Source: Nitrosopumilus sp. (GTDB lineage: Archaea > Thermoproteota > Nitrososphaeria > Nitrososphaerales > Nitrosopumilaceae). Taken from it: 64,000 nt of DNA. Both the position numbers and the translations under genes were made by a program. The stretch covers positions 662,204 to 726,203 of the forward strand of contig NZ_JAILWC010000001.1 in NCBI RefSeq assembly GCF_025699125.1. The letters run 5' to 3'. Below are positions 9,934 through 29,776 of the stretch, in pieces. The notes under the pieces are model-generated. The model was not told the origin of the DNA. It did not search any database and saw nothing but the letters and a program-made list of their open reading frames with translations. The number at the start of each line of letters is the position of its first letter. Position 1 is the stretch's first letter.

Positions 9934-10506
9934 TTAGAAAGTTCCCCAACGAGGGTATAAATCGTGCTCTACATCAAATTGGTCCAGACATTTTCCCACA
10001 CCATGATTTACAATATCATCAATGGATTTGGGTTTTGTGTAAAATTCTGTTACAGGGGGCAATATTACAACTCCTAATCTAGAAAGCTTTAACATGTTTT
10101 CCAAATGGATTGCTGATAACGGAGTTTCCCTTACCATTAAAATTAATTTTCTGGATTCTTTTATTGTCACACCTGCAGCTCTTGCAATTAATGTATCATC
10201 ATACCCATTTGCAATAGCTGCCAAAGTCTTCATGCTACATGGCGCAACAATCATACCATCAATTCTATGTGTTCCACTTGAAACACTGGATGCCATGTTT
10301 TTTTCGTCCGAAATGCTTGTTGCCAGTGACGTTACGTATTCAAGTGAATAATCAGTTTCCATTGAAATGCATTTCTGAGCCCATTCAGACATAATCAGAT
10401 GTGTTTCAATATTTGATTTCTTGAGAGTTTCCAGCATTCGTATACCATAGATTACACCAGTACTACCAGTTATTCCTATAACTAATTTCAACAAAATATC
10501 TATCAA
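9934..10506 (-). CDS. ubiX: UbiX/Pad1-type flavin prenyltransferase
   Basis: Makes prenylated FMN for UbiD-type decarboxylases. The FMN-binding start LVIGITGSTGVIYGIRML, the SSVSSGTHRIDGMIVAPCSM segment, NGYDDTLIARAAGVTIKE and RETPLSAIHLENMLKLSRLG are all family hallmarks. 190 aa; the ATG at 10506 adds about six residues before the fold, so the TTG six codons later is an alternative start. With MqnD and MqnE elsewhere in the window it may serve a late decarboxylation in futalosine-type menaquinone synthesis, as UbiX/UbiD homologues are thought to do; no UbiD is visible here. Confidence 0.92.
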   Translation of the reverse strand: MIDILLKLVIGITGSTGVIYGIRMLETLKKSNIETHLIMSEWAQKCISMETDYSLEYVTSLATSISDEKNMASSVSSGTHRIDGMIVAPCSMKTLAAIANGYDDTLIARAAGVTIKESRKLILMVRETPLSAIHLENMLKLSRLGVVILPPVTEFYTKPKSIDDIVNHGVGKCLDQFDVEHDLYPRWGTF

Positions 10507-10546
10507 AGTACAGTATTTTATGTATTAGATAACAGGGTGTTCAGCA

Positions 10547-10784: not shown

Positions 10785-11876
10785 GTGATCAAGAGTTCTG
10801 AGATAAAGAAGATAGTAAACGAATATTCGGACGTCAAGATAGGAGTCCTAGGAAGTCATTCAGCATTAGAAGTAATGGACGGGGCAAAAGATGAAAATTT
10901 CCAAACTATCGTTTTCTGTCAGAAAGGCAGAGAGGGACCTTACCAAAGATTTGGAAGAATTGCAGACGAAATAATTGTTTTAGATAAATTCAAGGACATG
11001 GCTTCTGCCAAATATCAAAAAATGTTAAGGGATTCAAATACAATTATTGTCCCACATAGATCACTTACCGTTTATCTTGGATACAAGACAATTGAAAATT
11101 CATTCAAAGTTCCAATTTTTGGAAATAGAAAATTATTCCAAGCAGAAGAGAGGACAGCAAAAAAGGGGCAATATTACTTGTTAGAAAAAGCCAGAATAAA
11201 ATATCCCAAATTATTCAAAGATCCTAAAAAAATTAACAAACCATGCATCGTAAAAGTTCAGGAAAAAAATAGACCTCTAGAAAGAGCATTCTTTACAGTT
11301 TCATCATACAAAGATTTTGTTGAAAAATCAGAAGCAAAAATCAAACAAGGAGTAATCTCAAGAAATGATCTAGCAAAATCAAGCATTGAAGAATTAGCAA
11401 TTGGGACATACATGAATTTCAATTTCTTTCACACACCGATATCAAATCAAGTTGATTTTATCGGAATTGAGCGAAGATTACAAACCAACATTCATGATTA
11501 CAATGCCCTTCCTGCAAAACAACAATTAGATATCAATGTGGATTTACAAAATATTGAAGTAGGACACACTCCTGCCAGCATTAGAGAATCATTACTAGAA
11601 AAAGTCATTAAAATGGGAGACAAATTCGTAGCAGCAGTCAAAAGAGAATACGCCCCAGGAATCATCGGTCCGTTTTCACTTCAAAGTGTAATTACAAAAG
11701 ATTTAGAATTAGTTGTGTACGATGTATCTTTACGAGTTCCTGGAAATCCAATAGTTGCAACTACTAGCCCATATACAAAATACCAATATGGACAAACATT
11801 TGGAGTCGGTAGAAGAATTGCCATGGAAATAAAGCGAGCTCAGGAAGAGGAACGTCTTGACGAGATTGTCACATAA
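10785..11876 (+). CDS. purP: FAICAR synthetase PurP (formate-dependent)
   Basis: Archaeal ATP-grasp enzyme that formylates AICAR with formate and ATP, replacing the folate-dependent PurH step. The N-terminal domain has VLGSHSALEVMDGAKDE and FGRIADEIIVLDKF; the ATP-grasp part has GQYYLLEKARIKYPKLF, VKVQEKNRPLERAF and the late GIIGPFSLQSVIT. The C-terminus TSPYTKYQYGQTFGVGRRI is family-specific. 363 aa, starting with GTG at 10785 (the ATG two bases earlier is immediately closed by TGA). With purC, F, L, Q and S nearby, much of the pathway is encoded in the first 12 kb. Confidence 0.93.
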   Translation: MIKSSEIKKIVNEYSDVKIGVLGSHSALEVMDGAKDENFQTIVFCQKGREGPYQRFGRIADEIIVLDKFKDMASAKYQKMLRDSNTIIVPHRSLTVYLGYKTIENSFKVPIFGNRKLFQAEERTAKKGQYYLLEKARIKYPKLFKDPKKINKPCIVKVQEKNRPLERAFFTVSSYKDFVEKSEAKIKQGVISRNDLAKSSIEELAIGTYMNFNFFHTPISNQVDFIGIERRLQTNIHDYNALPAKQQLDINVDLQNIEVGHTPASIRESLLEKVIKMGDKFVAAVKREYAPGIIGPFSLQSVITKDLELVVYDVSLRVPGNPIVATTSPYTKYQYGQTFGVGRRIAMEIKRAQEEERLDEIVT

Positions 11877-11971
11877 TTTCAGTTCTGACATTTCAAGTTG
11901 AAAATATTCCTGATATTCTACAAAGATTTTTTGTGAAATTAAAAAGAATGTGTTTGAAAAGAAAAATTAAA

Positions 11972-12065
11972 GGCGCAAACCCCTAACTGCAGAACTCTGA
12001 GAGATTCCCTCTCGTGGTCAAACGTCTAAACGTCTGATTGCCTTTTTTGTTCTGCGGGGCAGCGC
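11972..12065 (-). ncRNA. Putative structured small RNA (three-way junction), unrecognised family
   Basis: A GC-rich block in AT-rich DNA folds on the minus strand. P1: GCAGAAC (12055-12049) pairs with GTTCTGC (11995-11989), extended by CCCC (12059-12056) with GGGG (11983-11980) and GCGC (12065-12062) with GCGC (11976-11973). P2: CAGACGT-TTAG-ACGTTTG (12036-12019), seven pairs. P3: GAGAG-GGAAT-CTCTC (12013-11999). P2 contains a G-U pair on the minus strand that would be an A-C mismatch on the plus strand, favouring minus. A T-rich tract (11971 downward) follows, like an archaeal terminator. It does not match tRNA, 5S, SRP or RNase P RNA as far as I can see. Confidence 0.6.
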
Positions 12066-12080
12066 AATCTAATCGCCAGA

Positions 12081-12088
12081 TTTTATAA
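12081..12088 (-). promoter_or_regulatory. TATA box for the small RNA at 11972-12065
   Basis: The minus strand reads TTATAAAA, the only strong TATA-like element near the structured block. Its centre is about 24-27 nt before 12057-12060, the normal archaeal spacing, which would place the transcription start at the beginning of the CCCC/GGGG part of P1. The 5' end is therefore uncertain by a few bases. Confidence 0.45.
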
Positions 12089-12503
12089 CTAACGACATCC
12101 ATTAGTATAAGACATATAACTATTTAACATTTAGTATGATTTTTTTGAATAAAGTTGATGAAATATTGTAAATCTCATCTAAGCATAAAAATCATAGTTT
12201 GACTAAAAATTAGCGCAGGTAAAAAAGGAAATTTATTCAAATACAAAAACGAAGAAAGAAAATTCAAAAAATACATTATTTGATTGGTTCAGAACAATAA
12301 ATGATAATTTAAAAAATACCTAAAAAATTACAAAAGCATATTTTCAGTGAACACCATGCATTTTTGTTAATTGGTTAGATTGGAAATATGTTGAATACCA
12401 TTCGTTCTAATTTTGAATGATTAAAGCGGTTTGACATTCAAAATTGAATTGCTGAGGCCAATTAACAATACAAACTCTTTTGTTGTCATTTATTGATTAA
12501 ACA
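12089..12503. other. AT-rich intergenic region, no gene seen
   Basis: Very AT-rich sequence with no open frame of coding quality on either strand and no RNA fold comparable with the neighbouring block. ACATATAACTATTTAAC near 12110-12127 could be another promoter-like element. It separates the small RNA from the gene at 12504. Confidence 0.4.
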
Positions 12504-12767
12504 ATGATGGGGAAAACAATTTTCATTAAAGAAATAATCCTAATTCTAAAAGAGCCAAGATTATGTCCAACTTGTGAAAAAGAAGACAGATTGGAAAAAG
12601 ATATTGTGAGAGAGGAGAGAACAAATGGTAAAACTATCTTATGCTCCAGATGTGAGGCACTAATAGTAATAACTAATCAGCATCCAAGAAAAGTAGAACT
12701 ATCATCAACCATGGGCGACATCATAATGCTAAAAGAACCACATTTAATTAGAAAAGTAAGCTACTAA
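12504..12767 (+). CDS. Small zinc-ribbon-like protein, 87 aa
   Basis: Two Cys pairs, CPTCEKE (residues 21-24) and CSRCEAL (about 47-50), give a CxxC-x22-CxxC arrangement typical of a zinc ribbon, linked by a charged EDRLEKDIVREER segment. The N-terminus has a short hydrophobic helix (FIKEIILILKE). No catalytic motif. It overlaps by 4 nt at its end the convergent gene at 12764. Role unknown. Confidence 0.65.
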   Translation: MMGKTIFIKEIILILKEPRLCPTCEKEDRLEKDIVREERTNGKTILCSRCEALIVITNQHPRKVELSSTMGDIIMLKEPHLIRKVSY

Positions 12768-29439: not shown

Positions 29440-29503
29440 CATTAATAAATTTGATACTAGAACAACACGCTTAAGTTAACAATTTTAGTATAAAAATAGT
29501 AAT

Positions 29504-29776
29504 TTGAGTTTGATTTGTAAAAGATGTGATATCGAATTTCATGGGAGAACAGATAGAGAATTAATTTGTGAGTCATGTAATGCTCAGTTGGAATTACTAG
29601 ACAAAGAGAGAAAAGCAAATGATGAAAGGATTAGGAAGCTTGAAGAACACAAGAAATCAGAATTGGAAAATCCGACATCAGAAGAGACTATGAAAAGGAT
29701 AGAGCGCAATTTGCAAATAGAGTATAAAAAACGTGAGGGAATAATTAAAACGATCAAATCCAAAGATAGGTTCTAA
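29504..29776 (+). CDS. Zinc-ribbon plus coiled-coil protein
   Basis: 90 aa starting with TTG at 29504. N-terminal knuckles ICKRCDIEFHG and ELICESCNAQLE (CxxC-x14-CxxC), followed by a long charged helix (DERIRKLEEHKKSELENPTS, then MKRIERNLQIEYKKREGII). A TATAAAAATAG stretch about 10-15 nt upstream suggests a leaderless mRNA, though the spacing is short. Role unknown, perhaps a nucleic-acid or protein adaptor. Confidence 0.65.
   Translation: MSLICKRCDIEFHGRTDRELICESCNAQLELLDKERKANDERIRKLEEHKKSELENPTSEETMKRIERNLQIEYKKREGIIKTIKSKDRF

Follow-up and report, generated by a model that had tools for sequence, protein, structure and literature searches.

A gene for a structured RNA of ~130 nt, located behind purP in a Nitrosopumilus genome, has relatives in most genomes of the Nitrosopumilaceae, and every distinct copy that we compared places a mini-ORF of 8–9 codons directly before a closing helix, P1. 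Our preferred explanation, held with slightly less than even confidence, is a family of standalone small RNA genes whose function requires ribosome engagement. The copy described here lies in a 64,000-nt stretch of DNA from this genome (the window), whose coordinates are used throughout unless another contig is named (Table 1).

Structure, strand and extent of the RNA

The minus strand from 11969 to 12068 folds with a minimum free energy of −39.4 kcal/mol (z = −4.2; equalled by 0 of 200 shuffles) into the three-way junction that a sequence-only reading had described, with closing helices GCGC/GCGC, CCCC/GGGG and GCAGAAC/GUUCUGC plus two hairpins. The plus strand of the same block folds almost equally well (z = −4.1), so folding energy alone cannot decide the strand. 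The G–U pair from which that reading had called the strand is indeed present in a hairpin (TCAGACGT/ACGTTTGA on the minus strand, against an A·C mismatch, TCAAACGT/ACGTCTGA, on the plus strand), but it is the relatives that settle the matter: their minus strand carries the promoter, the ORF, one-sided G–U changes and the T-tract. The strand is therefore minus, and the comparison points to an independent small RNA, as had been suggested.

Comparison of the copies also assigns to the RNA a putative promoter, structure and T-tract of its own, and shifts its limits: the conserved unit runs from a TTAAATA box (12121–12127) to the T-tract (near 11953–11971), not from 11972 to 12065. The T-rich tract anticipated downstream is there and is T-rich in aligned copies; two other early assignments give way. 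TATAAAA, formerly read as the promoter, is part of the mini-ORF codons GTT ATA AAA, the promoter being TTAAATA ~26 nt before the ATG, and the transcript envisaged at ~90 nt becomes one of ~130 nt, of which the first 30 nt are the leaderless nine-codon ORF.

Alignment A1 (48 congeneric copies) has 91 cells in which both sides of a pair are changed, against 32 ± 6 in shuffles. The family-wide alignment behind covariance model R2 (62 distinct copies) has changes on both sides in 27 of 34 pairs, a result matched by 0 of 500 shuffles. Covariation in both alignments lies well above shuffled and slid controls and strongly backs the closing helix and both hairpins; such compensatory changes, sought by a covariance search, were the test originally proposed. 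The stem of the leader hairpin also has double changes in the family-wide alignment. P1 is a continuous helix of 9–10 bp in 41 of 51 distinct cases, and that of the window's own copy is interrupted (GCGC, then CCCC). Past P1 come a bulge, P1c and then a junction with the variable P2, whose sequence and length vary while its pairing is retained, and P3 (RAGAGGNAATCTCTY across copies, with a loop that is mainly GNAAT). A pairing of the junction AAAAAGGC with the 3′ GCCUUUUU, spotted by eye, has no covariation in alignment A1 and was rejected.

Table 1. Elements of the small RNA gene in window coordinates.
Element	Position	Strand	Observation
Promoter TATA box GTTAAATAG	12120–12128	−	Centre ~26 nt before start codon; kept in nearly all copies
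Leaderless mini-ORF ATG TCG TTA GTT ATA AAA TCT GGC GAT TAG (MSLVIKSGD)	12069–12098	−	ORF in 176/176 distinct copies
Leader hairpin TCGTTAG/CTGGCGA	nt 3–27 of mini-ORF	−	Mean z −2.6 plus covariation
P1 5′ strand (GCGC-TG-CCCC)	12056–12065	−	Starts 3 nt past stop codon; folding plus covariation
P1c 5′ strand (GCAGAAC)	12049–12055	−	Double changes in 6/7 pairs, family-wide
P2 hairpin (TCAGACGT TTAG ACGTTTGA)	12018–12037	−	Double changes in 7/7 pairs
P3 hairpin (GAGAG GGAAT CTCTC)	11999–12013	−	Element of highest conservation
P1c 3′ strand (GTTCTGC)	11989–11995	−	Folding plus covariation
P1 3′ strand (GGGG-TTT-GCGC)	11973–11983	−	Folding plus covariation
T-rich tract CTTTAATTTTTCTTTTC after P1, likely terminator	11953–11971	−	T-rich in aligned copies

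Distribution and paralogues

Of 61 genomes searched at the DNA level, 33 contain the block, all of them in the same genus and often with two per genome. Covariance model R1 extends the RNA to 216 of 250 Nitrosopumilaceae genomes (122 of the 131 of good quality) and 18 of 22 genera, and covariance models place 1–5 paralogues in a genome; genera g27, g29, g30 and g42 are without a clear match. A separate pattern search returned matches in Nitrosopumilus, Nitrosarchaeum and other Nitrosopumilaceae; two of its loci are labelled Nitrososphaeraceae (L092 and L114), but have copies and neighbours that match those of Nitrosopumilaceae. Searches of other families with R1, the wider model R2 and the still wider R3 gave no credible homologue: a candidate in genome G058 (E = 0.34) is without the ORF and was rejected. 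A weak, distant match in genus g27 (G079, locus L286; 26 bits) has no closed mini-ORF and is possibly a homologous form that does without it. The exact pattern was not found in viral contigs; the pattern is stringent, hence this is weak evidence.

The window's genome holds at least three paralogues. Copy A, that of the window, is located behind purP (a gene with PF06849 and PF06973, which we take to be the two PurP domains), and copy B is flanked by an SDR gene and a convergent gene of ~143 codons. Copy C, found with R3 on contig 4 of the same genome (G000, 29476–29603, minus strand; locus L287), sits between two genes that by their sequences look aroC- and aroA-like, and is antisense to both. 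The ORF of copy C (MQKRVNYKP), its spacing and P1 are retained, and its inner domain differs, with GAGTGAGGAGAATGCTTTTCACTC as inner hairpin; opposite-strand matches at this locus were dismissed as shadows of palindromic helices. Elsewhere, contig 184 of genome G270 carries tandem copies at 10093–10216 (L219) and 10399–10524 (L236), with a promoter and a mini-ORF apiece.

Two neighbouring proteins are recorded here in their own right. The ~143-aa protein encoded convergently to copy B in many genera (L035 and many locus B loci) is conserved, has the motif FHVTLADPxLY and is probably membrane-anchored or secreted. Beside copy A, the plus strand at 12504–12767 encodes an 87-aa protein with two CxxC motifs, which is kept there within the genus and has no Pfam match.

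A leaderless mini-ORF of fixed length

All 176 distinct copies, which share ancestry and so do not amount to 176 independent events, follow one rule: a start codon, 8–9 codons, a stop, 3–5 nt and then P1. Shuffled leaders satisfy it in 1.3% of cases. Start codons are ATG (163), GTG (7) and TTG (6), stop codons TAA (93), TAG (55) and TGA (28), and the ORF has 9 codons in 165 copies and 8 in the other 11. The start codon lies 26 nt from the TATA centre in 148 copies and 25 nt in 16, and its distance to P1 is fixed at ~33–35 nt. Within the ORF span, stops occur at 0 of 1,573 codons in frame, against 189 of 1,397 and 70 of 1,397 in the other two frames. Models R1–R3 include leader columns, which could favour similar leaders; copies with unrelated leaders also hold the ORF, which is kept in at least 15 leader clusters of <60% identity with peptides as unlike as MSLVIKSGD, MRKDVKSNK, MHMARKSMA, MLVQCRMMD and MFTKPQKMA. 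Another 20-odd copies have it too, in a listing that holds ORF-bearing copies only. Among 296 other TTAAATA boxes in the retrieved loci, three scored with such an ORF at 25–26 nt, two of them being copies of the RNA, which leaves one. As a separate observation, 89 of these 296 boxes (~30%) have a possible start codon exactly 25–26 nt downstream, which fits common leaderless transcripts in this lineage.

The copies encode 99 different peptides, and those of paralogues are unrelated. For closely related pairs, dN/dS is ~0.85 in the frame of the ORF and 0.98 and 0.92 in the two alternatives, a rough count over 24 nt that double as a hairpin; on these sequences, selection on the peptide is not clear and its absence is not proven. 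Leaders fold better than their own shuffles (mean z = −2.6). Comparison among copies thus establishes structure, strand and promoter position together with a start, stop, frame and length that are conserved where the peptide is not. Fixed boundaries around a drifting peptide are as expected if a ribosome must pass, but would not be expected of a peptide product, and what counts is probably this passage and not the peptide.

How ribosome passage might act on the RNA

We infer that the RNA is transcribed and translated. Transcription would begin at, or a few nucleotides from, the AUG, GUG or UUG, and a ribosome loading on the 5′ end would open the 5′ hairpin, read the 8–9 codons and halt 3–5 nt before the GC-rich P1 of 9–10 bp. 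By established ribosome geometry, a ribosome terminating with the stop codon in the A site extends over roughly 11–13 nt past it, a footprint that would take in the greater part of P1. We therefore propose that P1 is opened by the passing ribosome or, alternatively, slows it down. Each transit would unzip P1 or pause there while the inner domain (P1c, P2 and P3) remains folded, and ribosome traffic might thereby determine how the RNA is folded, how long it lasts or which partners it binds, so that it would act as a sensor of translation or as a brake on it. The geometry suggests P1 as the switch, and the RNA would presumably act in trans. More tentatively still, we suggest a new class, ribosome-gated RNA, comprising trans-acting structured RNAs that take as their signal the passage of a single ribosome through a leaderless mini-ORF of fixed length, with the peptide irrelevant.

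Alternative explanations

The alternative that fares best, although we consider it rather unlikely, is a classical trans-acting or protein-scaffolding sRNA whose mini-ORF does no more than shield the 5′ end or let the leaderless RNA pass as mRNA. The ribosome would then serve as a cap against 5′ decay and the function would reside in P1c, P2 and P3. This agrees with the sequence conservation of P3 and P1c, the highest within the genus (alignment A1), with genes that are standalone and multi-copy, and with a peptide that lacks conservation. Protection, however, needs neither exactly 8–9 codons nor a stop that always lies 3–5 nt before P1, and between paralogue groups the inner domain changes (copy C) but ORF and P1 are retained.

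It is improbable that the peptide itself is the product, a signal or precursor of 8–9 aa encoded by one of the smallest genes, with the 3′ structure stabilizing the message. The ORF is conserved in all distinct copies and short motifs (MxKDxxxID and MSLVxKSGD) are common within groups, as a functional peptide would have it; yet amino-acid changes are nearly as common per site as silent ones, paralogues differ completely in peptide and the heavy covariation sits in the RNA body. A dual-function sRNA with a conserved functional peptide was rejected, as the dN/dS value and the number of different peptides speak against it.

Quite improbable, too, is a ribosome trap, which would be a special case of ribosome engagement with the ribosome as target: in cells that grow slowly, ribosomes loaded at the 5′-terminal start would pause at P1, each carrying a short peptidyl-tRNA, and so be sequestered. 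The fixed distance from start codon to P1 and the stable helix directly past the stop would suit such a trap, whereas complementarity to the 16S tail is not in excess; the idea that the purine-rich P3 (GAGG) pairs with the genome's own 16S 3′ tail GGATCACCTCCT (L294) was discarded because, overall, shuffled sequences give best matches at least as long.

Last, it is very improbable that the RNA is a cis element, be it the leader or attenuator of a gene downstream or an antisense regulator acting on a convergent neighbour. At locus B the RNA and the convergent 143-aa gene do meet at their 3′ ends, and this in many genera, but elsewhere some copies are co-directional and others face purP, aroA, a CorA-like gene or further genes. 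Of 161 copies, 141 are followed first by a gene on the opposite strand, and the genes that follow are of unrelated kinds. Any antisense role would thus have to change between copies and, with no consistent co-directional downstream gene, a leader or attenuator serving one particular gene is ruled out.

Relation to known RNAs

Rfam 15 at the gathering score matches one tRNA elsewhere in the window and nothing else, and gives no match at E ≤ 5 over 11850–12200, in keeping with an initial failure to recognize the family. ARAGORN reports one tRNA-Ser in the window and no tmRNA, for which a tRNA-Ala-like acceptor domain is the criterion. Guide RNAs were rejected on inspection of alignments A1 and A2, which have neither a conserved RUGAUGA/CUGA pair (C/D) nor a 3′ ACA (H/ACA), and on the lack of an Rfam match for either type.

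Dual-function sRNAs such as SgrS/SgrT, RNAIII/hld and SR1/SR1P are likewise small RNA genes containing a short ORF; their peptides are conserved and functional, whereas here conservation extends to start, stop and length alone, in a leaderless ORF of 8–9 codons. Leader-peptide attenuators, among them the trp leader and the leaderless Cys uORF attenuators of mycobacteria, would share the idea that the position of a ribosome on a tiny ORF controls an adjacent helix, but here no regulated gene follows and the RNA ends after P1. tmRNA also combines a tag-sized ORF with structured domains; in the Nitrosopumilaceae RNA the ORF is instead at the 5′ end, leaderless and equipped with a start codon of its own. 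Among archaeal RNAs, the ribosome-associated sRNAs of Haloferax volcanii are defined by Ribo-seq and show ribosome occupancy, most of them without coding potential, and the abstract of that report states no conserved family with a fixed mini-ORF (PMC12482152). Tan1 of marine group II Euryarchaeota, a structured small RNA of unknown function known by expression, is set apart from the present RNA by its description as euryarchaeal and 229 nt long (PMC5069720).

Rfam and the open-access papers searched name no such RNA, and the papers name no comparable small RNA in marine Thaumarchaeota; on that condition, the novelty lies in the architecture. Nitrosopumilaceae include abundant ammonia oxidizers of the sea, and few cells on Earth are as numerous as those of marine Thaumarchaeota. 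A mini-ORF coupled to an RNA fold in nearly all genomes of this family would be a new route from translation into RNA function.
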